Shown here: positions 8,743 to 24,751 of the stretch, piece by piece | Numbering within the stretch: position 1 is the stretch's first letter | Layout of the letters: the number at the start of each line of letters is the position of its first letter | IMG/VR virus record: IMGVR_UViG_3300013233_000066 | Coordinates: 1 to 24,751 of that record | Reading direction: 5' to 3' (one strand) | Length of the DNA stretch: 24,751 nt | Source of the DNA: a virus | Program-made: the position numbers and the translations under genes | The notes under the pieces: model-generated | What the model was told of the DNA's origin: nothing | The model's input: only the letters and a program-made list of their open reading frames with translations | Database searches by the model: none

Positions 8743-9206
8743 GGCAGGCCACCTTTCCACTCACCGACCAGCGCAACATGGACAACGCCATAGCGTTTAT
8801 TCAGAAGCAGGAATTGACTGGCGACAAGGAAGTGACGATACGAAATGCCGGTGTTGGGAAGACGCTTCAACAGCTTGGCGCATTGTTCGGGTTATGGGTG
8901 ATGGAGGTGTCAGAGCGTGATGGATTATCTGAGGCGCGCATTCACCGAGAATGGAAGCGTGAATTTCTAGAGCGGATATATAAAACAGAAGCAAAGAATA
9001 ATCATCAGCGCATGTGGGTTGATTTATGCACAATACTCCAAGAGACGGGCAAGTTTGAGTTACTGGAGTTTCATAGAGATCACATATCACTCTCATGGGC
9101 TGACATAAATCAAACAAAACAGTATATGAATGCAATCCAGAACCACTACATCGACATAGGTGAACCGCTGACGATTCCGGATAAATTTAGGAGGTGTTAT
9201 AGGTGA
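8739..9206 (+). CDS. NinB-like recombination protein candidate, 3' end replaced by mobile insertion
   Basis: A 155-residue protein from ATG 8739, overlapping the previous stop by four bases. The start (MRQATFPLTDQRNMDNAIAF), DKEVTIRNAGVGKTLQQLGALFGLWV and the C-terminal AIQNHYIDIGEPLTIPDKFR resemble the NinB layout: an N-terminal beta/helix part, a KTxxQxxxLF segment and a helical end. NinB assists recombination by binding single-stranded DNA. The last 30 residues are repeated, in diverged form, 694 bases downstream after an HNH endonuclease gene. The present 3' end is therefore probably a substitute brought in with that gene. Confidence 0.5.
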   Translation: MRQATFPLTDQRNMDNAIAFIQKQELTGDKEVTIRNAGVGKTLQQLGALFGLWVMEVSERDGLSEARIHREWKREFLERIYKTEAKNNHQRMWVDLCTILQETGKFELLEFHRDHISLSWADINQTKQYMNAIQNHYIDIGEPLTIPDKFRRCYR

Positions 9207-9829
9207 GTGTTTCTATAGGACGCACATACGGAAATTGGGCTGTTGTTTGTTTTTCTGGCAGGGATAAATTTAGTAATAAGCGTTTTCTGTGTAGATGTGT
9301 GTGTGGAAAAGAAAAGGTTGTGGATTCATCCAATCTCAGCTCAGGAAAAAGCAAATCATGCGGGTGTATGAGGCGATCAAACGAGAAGCATGGCTATTAC
9401 TATACCAATGAATACAAAATTTACCATGGAATGAAAACACGATGTTACAATAAAAACAGTGTGTCATATGTGAACTACGGCGGTCGCGGGATACGAGTGT
9501 GCGACAGGTGGCTTGAGTCATTTGAGAATTTCCTATCAGACATGGGAAAAAAACCATCTTTAGATCACAGTATTGATAGAGAGGATAATGATGGTGACTA
9601 CTCGCCTGAAAATTGCAGGTGGGCGACAGCAAGCGAACAAAGTTCGAACAGGCGTGATGCTGTTCGCATTGTTTACAATGGAATAACCGGGAGCCCATCA
9701 GAGTGGGAAGAGATAACGGGGATACCTGCAAGGACGATATACAACAGAATCCACAAGTTAAAATGGGGCGATAAAAAGGCGGTAACAACACCGGTTAATG
9801 TAAATTTACGGAGATGTATCGGGAAATGA
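9203..9829 (+). CDS. HNH homing endonuclease (zinc-ribbon, SxDRxDNxGxYxPENCRWAT type)
   Basis: A 208-residue free-standing mobile endonuclease. GTG 9203 overlaps the upstream stop (GTGA) and uses GGAGG in the host gene. Residues 30-55 form a zinc ribbon (CRCVCG then SCGC). Residues 70-110 include the YKIYHGMKTRCYN and YGGRGIRVCDRWLESFENF blocks. Residues 119-142 hold the HNH core (HSIDREDNDGDYSPENCRW, with H122 and N137). The C-terminus (NGITGSPSEWEEITGIPARTIYNRIHK) is an added helix-turn-helix that would recognise DNA. It would cut an allele lacking the insertion and be copied into it. The final codons overlap the displaced 3' end of the host gene. Confidence 0.88.
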   Translation: MSVSIGRTYGNWAVVCFSGRDKFSNKRFLCRCVCGKEKVVDSSNLSSGKSKSCGCMRRSNEKHGYYYTNEYKIYHGMKTRCYNKNSVSYVNYGGRGIRVCDRWLESFENFLSDMGKKPSLDHSIDREDNDGDYSPENCRWATASEQSSNRRDAVRIVYNGITGSPSEWEEITGIPARTIYNRIHKLKWGDKKAVTTPVNVNLRRCIGK

Positions 9830-18149: not shown

Positions 18150-18563
18150 ATGGCTGTAACAATCTATGGCGATATCACGCCACGTACCGCAGCACATGCG
18201 GTCAAGAAAATGCTCAAACGCGGTATTCCGATTATGGTGTTTGAGAAATTTGGGCAGACTTACCCTCTGCCGCAGAAGAGCACGAAAGTTGCAAAGTTCC
18301 GTAGGTACAATGCACTTTCAGCTGTTCCAAACGCACTGACGGAAGGTGTCGCGCCAGCAGGCAAAACACTCACGTCAACCGACGTAACTGCAACGCTCGC
18401 TCAGTACGGTGATTTTGTGCCGGTATCCGATGTTATCATGGATACACACGAAGACCCTGTGCTGGTTGAAGCGACCGACGTTTTAGGTGAACAGCAGGCG
18501 GAAATGATCGAAACCGTCCGCTACAATATCCTGAAGGCTGGAACCAACGTAAAAAGATTCATT
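18150..18563 (+). CDS. Major capsid protein, exon 1 (N4-gp56 type)
   Basis: Exon 1 (138 codons) encodes the N-terminal part of the coat protein (MAVTIYGDITPRTAAHAVKK, RGIPIMVFEKFGQTYPLPQKSTKVAKFRRY, then EGVAPAGKTLTSTDVTATLAQYGDFVPVSDV and AEMIETVRYNILKAGTNVKRFI). These blocks are the N4-gp56-family signature. The open frame runs 39 bases past the splice point to a stop at 18600-18602, inside the intron, so without splicing the protein would be truncated. The spliced gene is 993 bases (330 residues), normal for the family. The exon end is placed by the P1 pairing described for the intron, which falls between codons. Confidence 0.88.
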
Positions 18564-19338
18564 GAGGGTATTTTTACTCCGATGAAGGAATGCGCTGTCT
18601 AGGGAGTAATCCCTAGATCGACACTGGAAGTGATTTACTGGAAAACCTAAGGCTGATGTAATATGCTGTGTGTCCTGCATTAAGGAGGATATATGGCAAG
18701 AGAATTAGCTATGGCAACCAGAGGCAAGTTAAACCCAACAACCAAAGAAATATGTTACCTGGCCGGGGTTATTGATTCTGACGGGTGCATCTCGATGTCT
18801 AAGATGCACGCAGGTAAACAAAGAACTGCTAATCCACGATACGTACTTACAGTAAACGTGGTGAATACAAGTGAAAACTTAATGCAGTGGTTGGTTGAGA
18901 AGTTTGGAGGACGATATAAAGTCCGCCGAAAGGCCAGCGAGAACCATAAGACCACTTATGATTGGTGGTTTAATAATGGCAAAGCTGTTTGGATTCTCAG
19001 TCTGATTGAACAGTATCTCATCGTAAAACGAGCCCAAGCACAACTTGGTATCAAGTTGATAAAAGGGTGGAAAACTGAGCACAAAGGACCTGGGACAAAA
19101 ACCCCGGAAAGAGAAGTGCAACGAAGAGAGGGCTTTTACATTAAGTTTAAAGCTTTAAATCAGATGGGTAATACAGCCGCAACGACTAAGTCTTCCGGCC
19201 CCTGCATTGTTCAGCAGGGTGATGCGATAGTCTGAACTTGCGGGAAACCGTAAGAGAGAGAGTCGAAGAACTTTCTCCGCCACCATAAATGGTGGTCAGT
19301 AGGCGAAAAGCTGAAAGTAACAGATTTGGTTCTATTCG
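18564..19338 (+). ncRNA. Group I intron in the capsid gene
   Basis: A 775-base self-splicing intron model. P1: exon TTCATT (18558-18563) pairs with the guide GATGAA (18581-18586), with the required U-G pair at the splice site. P2 hairpin: CTAGGGA/TCCCTAG with GTAA loop (18599-18616). P3: CTGGAAG (18624-18630) with CTTCCGG (19192-19198). P7: GACTA (19184-19188) with TAGTC (19228-19232). P8: CCCTGC/GCAGGG (19200-19219). P9-region hairpins: TTGCGG-GAAA-CCGTAA (19238-19253) and CCACCAT/ATGGTGG (19280-19295). The intron would end at G19338 after TTC. P4-P6 were not resolved, and no clear P10 was seen; G19329 is an alternative 3' end. It encodes a LAGLIDADG endonuclease. Confidence 0.85.
18693..19235 (+). 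CDS. Intron-encoded LAGLIDADG homing endonuclease
   Basis: A 180-residue protein with one LAGLIDADG motif at residues 23-31 (LAGVIDSDG, catalytic D30), so it should act as a homodimer, as single-motif enzymes do. YVLTVNVVNTSENLMQWLVEKFGGRYKVRRKASENHKTTYDWWFNNGKAV and ILSLIEQYLIVKRAQAQLGIKLI match the alpha-beta core. AAGGAGG lies four bases before the ATG; ATG 18711 is an alternative. The final about 20 residues (NTAATTKSSGPCIVQQGDAI) are encoded by the ribozyme core (P7, P3', P8), and the stop TGA directly follows the P7 3' strand. It would cut intronless capsid genes to spread the intron. Confidence 0.92.
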   Translation: MARELAMATRGKLNPTTKEICYLAGVIDSDGCISMSKMHAGKQRTANPRYVLTVNVVNTSENLMQWLVEKFGGRYKVRRKASENHKTTYDWWFNNGKAVWILSLIEQYLIVKRAQAQLGIKLIKGWKTEHKGPGTKTPEREVQRREGFYIKFKALNQMGNTAATTKSSGPCIVQQGDAIV

Positions 19339-19917
19339 AATGGTGTTGCACGAACTGCCGTAAATACAGTGTACACACGCGCCTTGCAGCGTCAGGTGAC
19401 ACGCGCACTGAAACGACAGAATGCCAAGAAGGTAACCACGGTTGTACGTTCCACAGCGAACTTCAACACTGAAAACGTGGCGCCGGCATTCATCGGCCTG
19501 ATTCACACTGATATGGAAACCGATATTCGCAACATGACCGGATTTGTGCCTGTTGAGAATTATGGTTCCATGACTCCGTATGAGTCAGAAATCGGCAAGT
19601 GCGAAGATGTTCGCTATGTAACCAGTACCGTACTCGCACCGTTCGCGGATGCAGGCGGCCTGGCAGCAACAAACGCGACGCTTTCCACCACCGGCACGAA
19701 TTCTGATGTATATCCTGTCCTGATTGTAGCACGCGACGCCTACGGCATCGTGCCGCTGAAGGGTAAGAACGCATCCAGCATTCTGGTCAATAACCCACGC
19801 CCACAGCACGGCGACGAGCTCGCACAGCGCGGTTCAGTCGGCTGGAAGGCGCTCACTACAGCGGTAATCCTGAACGACTTGTGGATGGCGAGAGTTGAGA
19901 CAGCCGCAACAAACTAA
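19339..19917 (+). CDS. Major capsid protein, exon 2
   Basis: Exon 2 (192 codons plus stop) continues the coat protein: NGVARTAVNTVYTRALQRQVTRALKRQNAKKVTTVVRSTANF, then AFIGLIHTDMETDIRNMTGFVPVENYGSMTPYESEIGKCEDVRYV, ADAGG, VYPVLIVARDAYGIVPLKGKNAS and GWKALTTAVILNDLWMARVETAATN. These are the C-terminal blocks of the N4-gp56 capsid family. There is no start codon of its own with a ribosome-binding site, so it depends on splicing from exon 1. A weak AAAGG/CCTTT hairpin with T run follows the stop (19916-19935). Confidence 0.9.
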   Translation, partial: NGVARTAVNTVYTRALQRQVTRALKRQNAKKVTTVVRSTANFNTENVAPAFIGLIHTDMETDIRNMTGFVPVENYGSMTPYESEIGKCEDVRYVTSTVLAPFADAGGLAATNATLSTTGTNSDVYPVLIVARDAYGIVPLKGKNASSILVNNPRPQHGDELAQRGSVGWKALTTAVILNDLWMARVETAATN

Positions 19918-19993: not shown

Positions 19994-20587
19994 ATGGCAA
20001 AAAAAACAGGCAAGCTTCTTTCGTGTAAGGAGTGTGGAAAGGAGTTCTACGCTCCATTGAGCCGGTTGAAAACGGCAAAGTATTGTTCAGTAACATGCTC
20101 GAATCAGCACAGAGGGGCATCAAAGGAAAAGGTTGCCCTGATATGCATAGAGTGTGGCGAAACATTTCTTGAACACCAATGCCATGCTGGGCGGCGGGTT
20201 TATTGTTCCAATGGATGTCGAGAGGCAAGCAGGCTATATCAGGATGCTAAGTCATCACGAAATAAGGCGGACAAAAACCCAATGTGGAAAGGCGGGCGCA
20301 CTATTCATTCAGATGGATATATCTACCTGAATAGCCCAGACCACCCTCGCGCAAGCAATGGGTATGTTCTTGAGCACAGGCTTGTTGTGGAAAGACATCT
20401 AAATGATGTTGATCCAGACAGTCCGTTTCTTGAGGGCGTACATGGCAGAAAGGTGTTAAAGACGTGTTTCGTGGTGCATCATAAAAATTTCGATAAGGCT
20501 GACAACCGAATTGAAAATTTACAATGCATGACTACCAGTGAACACAAAACATTACATGAAAGACTTAAACAGGAGTCCGCCAACTAA
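19994..20587 (+). CDS. Free-standing HNH homing endonuclease with two zinc ribbons
   Basis: A 197-residue mobile nuclease between the capsid gene and the next structural gene. Two zinc ribbons lie at the N-terminus (C11, C14, C31, C35 and C51, C54, C71, C75). NPMWKGGRTIHSDGYIYLNSPDH and VLEHRLVVERHLN lead to the HNH_3 core VVHHKNFDKADNRIENLQCMTTSEHKTLHER (H162/H163, N171/N175, H184, H188). It is a different family from the HNH gene at 9203 and from the intron's LAGLIDADG enzyme. Because it follows the capsid gene so closely, its target is probably that gene or the intergenic region; this is inferred. Confidence 0.88.
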   Translation: MAKKTGKLLSCKECGKEFYAPLSRLKTAKYCSVTCSNQHRGASKEKVALICIECGETFLEHQCHAGRRVYCSNGCREASRLYQDAKSSRNKADKNPMWKGGRTIHSDGYIYLNSPDHPRASNGYVLEHRLVVERHLNDVDPDSPFLEGVHGRKVLKTCFVVHHKNFDKADNRIENLQCMTTSEHKTLHERLKQESAN

Positions 20588-22403: not shown

Positions 22404-24751
22404 GTGCCACTAATTCCAACAGTAAACGTAACAGCAACAATACATAATCAGGATGGATCAGTTGCTTCCGGTGCAATTATAACCGCCAAATTAAATAAAA
22501 CAGATACATACAATGGGTATGTAGCCCCTATGCAGCAGATGTTTACAGCAGATGTAAACGGGCAAGTGGTTATGCCTCTTTGGCCAAACGCGTTAGGGGC
22601 TTCTGGTTCGCAATATCAGTTTAAGATCGTAAGCGCGCAGACAGGTAAGACAATTCTAAGCGGGCTGGGCACTGTGCCAAATTCTGCCGCAAATCTATTT
22701 ACAATCATTTCAACCGCACCGCCTGCAACACTTAGCCAGGCAACAGTTGCGCAAAATGCAGCAGCGGCAAGTGCAGCGGCAGCCTTTGCATCTGAAGCAA
22801 ACGCTGCCACTTCAGAGGCAAACGCAGCCACATCTGAGACGAATGCAGCTGCAAGCAAAACGAATGCAGCAACCAGCGCAACGAACGCCGCCGCAAGTGA
22901 AGCGAATGCGGCGACATCCAGCACAGCAGCTGCCTTGAGTGCCAGTAACGCCGCCGCAAGTGAAGGCAACGCGGCCGTATCTGAATCGAATGCAGCCACG
23001 AGCAAGGCGAATGCAGTTACTTCGGAAACGAATGCGGCCGCGAGCGCCACAAACGCCGCTGCTTCGGAAGCTAATACTGCTACCTCGGAGACGAACGCTG
23101 CAACTTCGGAGACAAACGCTGCTACATCTGAAACAAATGCAGCCACGAGCGCTACAAACGCCGCTACATCGGAGACGAACGCAGCAGCTTCAGACAATCA
23201 CGCTACCGCTCAGGCCACGGCTGCCGCGAGCAGTGCCGCGTCTGCCAGTCAGGATGCGTCCTCCGCATCGAGCAGCGCCAGCGCCGCAGCCGCGAGCGAA
23301 GCCAATGCCGCCGCTGTTGTGACCGGGGGTACCGCTTCGCTCGTGCCTTCCCCAGGCAAGATCCCTCTGGCGGATGCCCAAGGGAAGGTTCGCGCCGACT
23401 GGCTTGGTGCTTTCCCTGCTGTTGTCGCACAGCTGCCTGCGCTTTCGATTGTAGATTACGACTACTTTGACAACTCGAAAGACAGCGCATGGATTGACAA
23501 GTGCGCAGACAAGGCGTGGGAGAATGAGACCGTTTACACCGGCAAGCAATATCTCGGCGCAACCTACGCCAACGATGCCGCCGCCCTTGCCGCGAACCCT
23601 TCCATCGTAGCCAACGACATTTACTACAACGGCACGGACTTCGTGCTGTATTCCACCGGCACTGTGATTTATCGGGCATCCCGCCGCAAGTTCCCGATGC
23701 GCGGTTTTGTCTCAGTAGAGACAGGCCGTATGATTGTTTGGGACACCACTGCGGGCGTACCTATGATGTGGAAAGTGTTTATACTTGGTACTACGGTGGC
23801 GAAAAGATACCATCTTTATAACGGGAGCCAGGGGGCCAACGCTACGCTGACCTCCGTAAAGGTGCTCGGTAGCAGAATTGTTGTCGGCATGAACGGGAAT
23901 TCTCCTCGCGTCTCTATAATTAACTTCACCAAGGACACTACAGAGGTATACCACACTACGGGCTATTATGTCTATGCCAATACGTTGGACAAGGCAAATA
24001 CACAGTCTCCCCTACCCTTGGTAGACTCATCGAGGAAGATTCTGGGAGCGGTCAATGATGTAGCGCTAACCTATCTCGCTGACGCACCGCTCGATGAGGA
24101 CGGGGTGCGAGTGCCCACTATTTATGCGTTTATGTCGCCCGGTGTAAGTCGAATTGCTGATGACGGTACGGTTAGTTCAACAGCGGCTGCTTTTAGATTG
24201 AATCGGAAGGGGAGTGTATTTGGGGGCTATGTTTACGTTGCGTCTGCAGGGTTTACGTTTCCAACGAAGTGGCCTGTATCCTCAACTCTACCAACGGGTG
24301 GAGGGGCTGATCTCGTAACATATTGGCCAAACTACGTCATATCAAATGCATGGTCAACAAATAGCATGCCTGTTGTAGAAGGACGATCTCCGTCAGTAAT
24401 GGCGGGGGAGATGTTTGGTTCCTCGGCCGGCATAGCCGTTACCAGATTAAACTTTATATCTGTAGGAAAATCCCTGGCAGCAGGGGTCTCTAATACCCAC
24501 AACACCGGCTACATGGTAGGGGACATCCGCCGTGCCATTGGCTACGACTCAGCTTCTGTCCTTGCTGACAAATCAGTAAAAGCCGGGGCCCCTGTAGAAG
24601 TAGGTACCCTTACCAAGACGTTACAACCAAATGGACGTACTATCGTCTCAGGCTTCTCTGCTGCCAACTACATTCAGGAACCTACTCATGCAGACTTTAA
24701 TGCTCTGGGTACGGGCGACTTCTCCATCATTATGAGCGGGGTGTTCATAAG
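22404..24751 (+). CDS. Tail fibre protein (3' end beyond window)
   Basis: Starts at GTG 22404, nine bases after GGAGG; 782 codons are present and the frame continues past the window. Residues 1-120 form an N-terminal virion-attachment region (TVNVTATIHNQDGSVASGAIITAKLNK). Residues about 127-266 are some twenty Ala-rich heptads (AATSETN type) like the coiled-coil shaft of lambda Stf. TGGTASLVPSPGKIPLADAQGKVRADWLG links to a beta-rich domain (residues about 370-720), and the end (FSAANYIQEPTHADFNALGTGDFSIIMSGVF) opens a LamG/concanavalin-like receptor-binding domain. It would decide host range. Base composition changes within the gene at about 23200-23750. Confidence 0.88.
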   Translation, partial: MPLIPTVNVTATIHNQDGSVASGAIITAKLNKTDTYNGYVAPMQQMFTADVNGQVVMPLWPNALGASGSQYQFKIVSAQTGKTILSGLGTVPNSAANLFTIISTAPPATLSQATVAQNAAAASAAAAFASEANAATSEANAATSETNAAASKTNAATSATNAAASEANAATSSTAAALSASNAAASEGNAAVSESNAATSKANAVTSETNAAASATNAAASEANTATSETNAATSETNAATSETNAATSATNAATSETNAAASDNHATAQATAAASSAASASQDASSASSSASAAAASEANAAAVVTGGTASLVPSPGKIPLADAQGKVRADWLGAFPAVVAQLPALSIVDYDYFDNSKDSAWIDKCADKAWENETVYTGKQYLGATYANDAAALAANPSIVANDIYYNGTDFVLYSTGTVIYRASRRKFPMRGFVSVETGRMIVWDTTAGVPMMWKVFILGTTVAKRYHLYNGSQGANATLTSVKVLGSRIVVGMNGNSPRVSIINFTKDTTEVYHTTGYYVYANTLDKANTQSPLPLVDSSRKILGAVNDVALTYLADAPLDEDGVRVPTIYAFMSPGVSRIADDGTVSSTAAAFRLNRKGSVFGGYVYVASAGFTFPTKWPVSSTLPTGGGADLVTYWPNYVISNAWSTNSMPVVEGRSPSVMAGEMFGSSAGIAVTRLNFISVGKSLAAGVSNTHNTGYMVGDIRRAIGYDSASVLADKSVKAGAPVEVGTLTKTLQPNGRTIVSGFSAANYIQEPTHADFNALGTGDFSIIMSGVFI
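22782..23201 (+). repeat. 21-bp heptad repeat of the fibre shaft
   Basis: About twenty degenerate 21-bp units encode AATSETN-like heptads. No two adjacent units are identical in full, except that TSETNAA recurs nearly unchanged around 23090-23150. Such repeats recombine easily and could change shaft length. Confidence 0.85.

Follow-up and report, generated by a model that had tools for sequence, protein, structure and literature searches.

The 24,751 bases analysed here (the window), an IMG/VR record, carry a block of head genes in which terminase, portal/adaptor and a 313-aa ORF precede the gene of the major capsid protein, which is present as two parts. This capsid gene is of the N4-gp56/PHROG-1357 type and is split by a group I intron. 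We are highly confident that the insert is a mobile group I intron with an I-CreI-like LAGLIDADG gene, which interrupts the major capsid gene, would excise itself and would home. The basis is sequence, structure, covariation, recurrence at the same site and a patchy distribution. In the proposed mechanism the P1–P10 ribozyme would remove itself from the transcript by guanosine attack at U18550, and the exons would be joined after the omega-G at 19328 to give a capsid protein of 329 aa. The I-CreI-like protein would then cleave the joined-exon site of capsid alleles that lack the intron, and these would gain a copy of it during repair. An earlier note, made from the sequence alone, had proposed that the capsid gene contains a group I intron encoding a LAGLIDADG protein, and this is strongly supported by the covariance model, the covariation and the intact homologs.

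Intron boundaries and the joined capsid product

The earlier note had described two capsid halves split by an insert with an in-frame stop. Both were found: the exon-1 frame meets a TAG at 18600–18602 inside the insert, which also holds the LAGLIDADG ORF at 18693–19235. About 80 relatives on viral contigs with an uninterrupted capsid gene read AGTNV-F/Y-YANG at the interruption point (A/S variants: F/Y-Y-A/S-NG). Among the 79 intact relatives in the alignment, 72 retain the V and 65 retain the Y found two positions later. The pattern GTNV-F/Y-Y-A/S-NG in these sequences requires a join of 18550 to 19329 and a product of 329 aa. The intron splits the Val codon of GTN-V between its second and third bases, and the join reads ...GTNV/FYSNG.... 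L002, the closest intronless allele (93% protein and 85.5% DNA identity), aligns gap-free across this join. The 329-aa product matches PHROG 1357 (major head protein) with an E-value of 4e-59.

According to the earlier note the same intron extends from 18564 to 19338, with P1 formed by UUCAUU and GAUGAA and a joined capsid of 330 residues that contains GTNVKRFING. The product of an 18563/19339 join is in frame, and the fold does contain the UUCAUU × GAUGAA helix, which has a U·G pair at its end. However, this join, which reads ...GTNVKRFINGVAR..., inserts KRFI, without counterpart in the 79 capsids, and discards FYS, which has one. Against a capsid HMM from which the window had been left out, it scored 556.5 bits versus 567.2 bits for the 329-aa join (−10.7 bits). 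The UUCAUU × GAUGAA helix is absent from the five same-site relatives, and inspection by eye found no P10 for the 18563/19339 join. The homolog check had been expected to give a junction of ...FI to NG..., but the 79 intact relatives read GTNV-F/Y-Y-A/S-NG. We consider splicing at 18563/19339 very improbable; the length of 330 residues is wrong, and the boundaries have to be moved to 18551–19328 (778 nt), as fixed by the 79 intact capsids and the L002 DNA. Without the corrected splice sites, annotation would render this capsid gene as two separate parts.

Ribozyme helices and covariation

With the general group I model of Rfam (RF00028) the intron reached 19.2 bits, which is below the gathering threshold of 50, a search cut-off and not a biological definition of a group I intron. 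The 5’ half was mispaired. The low score and the misplaced 5’ half arise because the ORF separates the strands of the core. As the generic model was weak, other introns were therefore gathered for a covariance model of their own, using two DNA patterns of the ribozyme core that are blind to the host gene. The model was built from 45 aligned introns with the window’s family left out, and it shows compensatory changes in 16 of 25 pairs. It finds the window at 19173–19323 with 96.5 bits (E 6e-23), as well as the five same-site relatives and two further introns in one of them, L104; no match was obtained in nine intronless capsid loci. A scan of Rfam at the gathering thresholds gave no hit. One candidate, L089, was discarded as a chance match to the 3’-end pattern without a ribozyme core.

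In the window and its five same-site relatives 94.3% of the cells in P1–P10 are paired, a percentage that is favoured by the alignment having been cut into strands by hand with the sequences in view. Double-sided changes occur in 26 of 53 pairs, compared to 11.8 ± 2.3 in shuffles, and pairing falls to about 44% when the strands are slid by one base. The strongest covariation was found for P3 (7/7 pairs kept, 6 with a compensatory change). For P7 all cells are paired, again with compensatory changes. The helices P7–P9.1 stand independently on the 45-intron model, free of the hand-cut alignment. P2, P3, P7 and P8, all of which had been read from the single sequence before, are real pairings that covary in the six introns. 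The coordinates of all elements are given in Table 1.

The former P1 (UUCAUU × GAUGAA) is an extra hairpin in an enlarged L1, present in this intron only, and the true P1 is CAACGU × GCGCUG. An A·C or C·C mismatch is found in P1 of five of the six introns, while the U18550·G18592 pair at the 5’ splice site is present in 6/6; G19328 is the last intron base. A U-G pair at the 5’ splice site had been predicted, and the true P1 does end in such a pair, though not at the site named in the earlier note. In P10 91.7% of the cells are paired across the six introns, with the variants G·U/A-U at +1 and C-G/U·G/U-A at +4. We also considered 3’ strands of P4, P5 and P6 directly before P7. This arrangement was rejected, as RNA folds locate these strands in the first codons of the ORF, and the ORF-less introns L093 and L100 contain the same P4–P6 string contiguously.

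Table 1. Positions of the capsid exons, the intron, its helices and its reading frame in the window
Feature	Position	Strand	Details
Capsid exon 1	18150..18550	+	133 codons + 2 nt, ends ...GGA ACC AAC GT; Pfam Phage_capsid_4, E 6e-9; capsid HMM positions 1-135
P1 exon strand CAACGU	18545..18550	+	pairs with GCGCUG 18592-18597; U·G at 5’ splice site; internal A·C mismatch; -3 pair C-G to G-C in L087
Group I intron	18551..19328	+	778 nt; follows U18550, last base omega-G 19328; independent covariance model, P1/P10, six-intron covariation, intact homologs
Extra L1 hairpin UUCAUUG/CGAUGAA	18558..18586	+	folds; absent from relatives in alignment
Guide sequence GAAU + GCGCUG	18588..18597	+	GAAU forms P10 with GUUC 19329-19332, GCGCUG forms P1; conserved in same-site introns
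P2 UCUAGGG/CCCUAGA	18598..18617	+	contains exon-1-frame stop UAG 18600-18602; compensatory changes in 8/8 pairs
P3 5’ strand CUGGAAG	18624..18630	+	partner 19192-19198; 100% of cells paired; 6/7 pairs changed on both sides
P4 5’ strand CUGG	18638..18641	+	partner 18718-18721, inside ORF
P5 5’ strand ACC	18645..18647	+	partner 18713-18715; C-G to U-A in three relatives
L5 hairpin, 13-bp stem	18664..18698	+	buries Shine-Dalgarno 18682-18689 and ATG 18693-18695; -18.8 kcal/mol, z -5.2, 0/200 shuffles as low
LAGLIDADG homing endonuclease gene	18693..19235	+	180 aa, single motif YLAGVIDSDG; Pfam LAGLIDADG_1 (PF00961) above cut-off
Codons M-A-T-R-G-K	18711..18728	+	P5 3’ + P4 3’ (CCAG) + P6 5’ (GGC 18723-18725); fold and strand alignment
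P6 3’ strand GCC	19176..19178	+	six-intron alignment
P7 5’ strand GACUA	19184..19188	+	partner UAGUC 19228-19232; covariation A-U/G-C across the six-intron and the 45-intron sets
P3 3’ strand CUUCCGG	19192..19198	+	six-intron alignment
P8 CCCUGC/GCAGGG	19200..19219	+	six-intron and 45-intron covariation analyses
P9 CUUGCGG-GAAA-CCGUAAG	19237..19254	+	six-intron and 45-intron covariation analyses
P9.1 GAGAGAGU/ACUUUCUC	19256..19277	+	compensatory changes across 45 introns
P9.2-like hairpin CCACCA/UGGUGG	19280..19295	+	read from sequence
Capsid exon 2	19329..19917	+	starts G-TTC-TAT; stop TAA 19915-19917; joined product compared with PHROG 1357

The endonuclease frame within the ribozyme core

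An AlphaFold model of the endonuclease based on 38 phage sequences reached a pLDDT of 88.7 and matches the folds of I-CreI and I-MsoI (Foldseek E 3.7e-9, TM 0.64–0.75), with which it shares the single-motif LAGLIDADG fold. At the sequence level the similarity to these two enzymes is low (E 3e-5 to 0.1, about 20% identity); the D/E30 of the LAGLIDADG motif is kept. I-CreI and I-MsoI come from introns of algal organelles. PHROG 5046, the family to which the protein belongs, is labelled HNH endonuclease; the window’s member is LAGLIDADG by its Pfam motif and fold. A palindromic target, as for a homodimeric LAGLIDADG enzyme, did not stand out: at the join, the best symmetry over 22 bp is unremarkable and is equalled by 12% of capsid positions.

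The endonuclease frame spans from L5 to the 3’ strand of P7 and consequently codes through P5, P4, P6, P7, P3 and P8. ORFs reaching into the group I core are a known arrangement (PMC3984707). A stop codon has been suggested in the same work to keep ribosomes out of the ribozyme core, and the exon-1-frame UAG in P2 fits this idea. Since the start of the endonuclease frame is buried in the L5 hairpin and the exon-1 frame stops in P2, the core would probably fold in most cases before any ribosome enters it. The buried start and the exon-1-frame stop may thus provide translational control. A strong hairpin at the start codon is a feature of the window alone; z is −1.4 in L086 and −1.9 in L087.

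Same-site relatives, host genes and known capsid introns

Five distinct relatives carry an intron at the same capsid codon (L082/L083, L084/L085, L086, which is identical to L088, L087 and L104). L086 belongs to the genome sequence of Kushneria aurantia DSM 21353 (NZ_KB907863.1), a bacterium available in culture; its intron spans 2889–3624 of L086 (736 nt). This carrier makes splicing and homing at the site directly testable and is the obvious bench system. Compared with the window, the capsids of the five relatives are 44–57% and their endonucleases 61–69% identical. Across all 15 pairs the endonucleases are 54–69% and the capsids 39–59% alike, with the endonuclease more alike in 14 of the 15, a contrast that homing predicts but that unequal evolutionary rates might explain as well. 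A blastn search of the whole locus against phage isolates gave no match.

On the capsid tree the window nests among the intronless L002, L003 and L004 with 100% bootstrap. The intron distribution is patchy and forces at least three gains or losses; related genes thus differ in the presence of an intron at one site, the pattern by which mobile introns are recognised. The patchy distribution and the position of the window inside an intronless clade are what homing predicts. The recurrence in divergent capsids agrees with the suggestion that the conserved capsid codon may serve as a reliable homing site.

A dead or decaying insert, which would leave the capsid gene broken on the contig of a defective prophage or a minority variant, has very little probability in our view. 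The record of 24.75 kb may be a fragment, yet no core helix is lost, the open ORF retains its active-site motif, and exon 2 reads undamaged up to the stop codon. Practically negligible is an assembly chimera, a programmed frameshift or an intein instead of an intron: the record is a contig, but five other phage lineages, one of them represented by an isolate genome, have the same insert at this codon, the ribozyme covaries, and the in-frame stop together with the internal start excludes an intein.

We then turned to the host genes of the lineage to which this mobile intron belongs. Among the matches listed, 41 of 113 intron cores (on 35 contigs, the window and its family included) adjoin exons of this capsid family; the cores were gathered mostly by host-blind patterns, whose exactness favours one lineage, the contigs are interrelated, and short exons are missed. 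Downstream of the cores among the matches listed, 95 reading frames were considered. Of these, 18 match PHROG 1357 and 15 PHROG 283, both head proteins, with 13 matches to the Pfam P22 coat; a family of major tail proteins accounts for 8, and two portal families are matched once each. Polymerase, reductase or terminase were absent from the 25 commonest PHROG matches of these 95 frames, the remainder of which are mostly endonucleases. Head-protein genes are therefore the commonest identified host in this intron lineage among the matches listed. Mobile introns recur in phage capsid genes, a point of importance for phage surveys and phylogenies that rely on the capsid.

Some of these loci are more complex. 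The capsid gene of L104 (6841–9918) is interrupted by three group I introns, all of which contain a LAGLIDADG-type ORF; the first scores weakly (25.9 bits), and its core is unlike the other two (AACGACTATCCCTTCGGGGAGTAGGG). In L188 (1–2640) five intron-core matches surround one capsid gene on a 6-kb contig. For three of them the preceding exon ends at capsid residue 185 and the following one starts at 181, which may point to tiny exons or nested introns. P22-coat-type capsid genes with introns of the same lineage, some with several per gene, were seen in L140, L142, L173, L224 and others.

Capsid introns are already known from several phages, and the window’s intron adds a member. Mycobacteriophage LittleE has a group I-type intron of ~819 bp with a LAGLIDADG-like ORF in its major capsid gene, and its splicing was proven by RT-PCR and protein sequencing (PMC3706429, Pope et al. 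2013). It shares with the window the U before the intron, the G at the intron end and the LAGLIDADG-like ORF inside, but differs in its HK97-type capsid, the ORF on the bottom strand and its description from one phage with no same-site family (PMC3706429). For lactococcal phage Tuc2009 the likeness is a group I intron in the gene of a capsid subunit, as cited in PMC3706429. CrAss-like phages contain group I introns in major capsid genes with up to five gene fragments (PMC7886860); they are a different phage lineage and were compared with the window by intron type and host gene. Together with the 41 of 113 cores among the matches listed, these cases leave the former statement that a capsid host is uncommon unsupported. 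Twort-type, AR9/PBS1 and other phage introns show short P7–P9 DNA matches of ~82–95% to the lineage member L106; they are located in different host genes and do not match the window’s own intron. In the open-access literature we found no description of the same-site family, the apparent head-gene preference or the extent of the overlap between ORF and core.

Tentatively, and with somewhat less than even confidence, these introns may represent a phage group I lineage specialised on head genes. It would home to a single capsid codon in capsids that are 39–59% alike, elsewhere with up to three introns with LAGLIDADG-type ORFs per capsid gene (L104). The endonuclease frame overlaps most of the core and would have a hairpin-gated start, so that translation and splicing would exclude each other.

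Further nuclease genes are present in the window. Directly 3’ of the capsid gene is a stand-alone gene for an HNH endonuclease (HNH_3, E 4.5e-9; 19994–20587, + strand), so that a homing-type nuclease of another kind adjoins the capsid gene. Another HNH-family endonuclease gene is found at 9203–9829 (+; PHROG 374, E 6e-65). An Endonuclease VII-like protein is encoded at 2373–2891 on the − strand, its middle part being tandemly repeated (KAYQQTDKFKAYKKAYVKTHGNTDKRKVYM). Long repeats rich in Ala, Ser, Asn and Glu (ANAATSE-type units) at 22730–23320 (+) are perhaps part of a tail-fibre-type gene.
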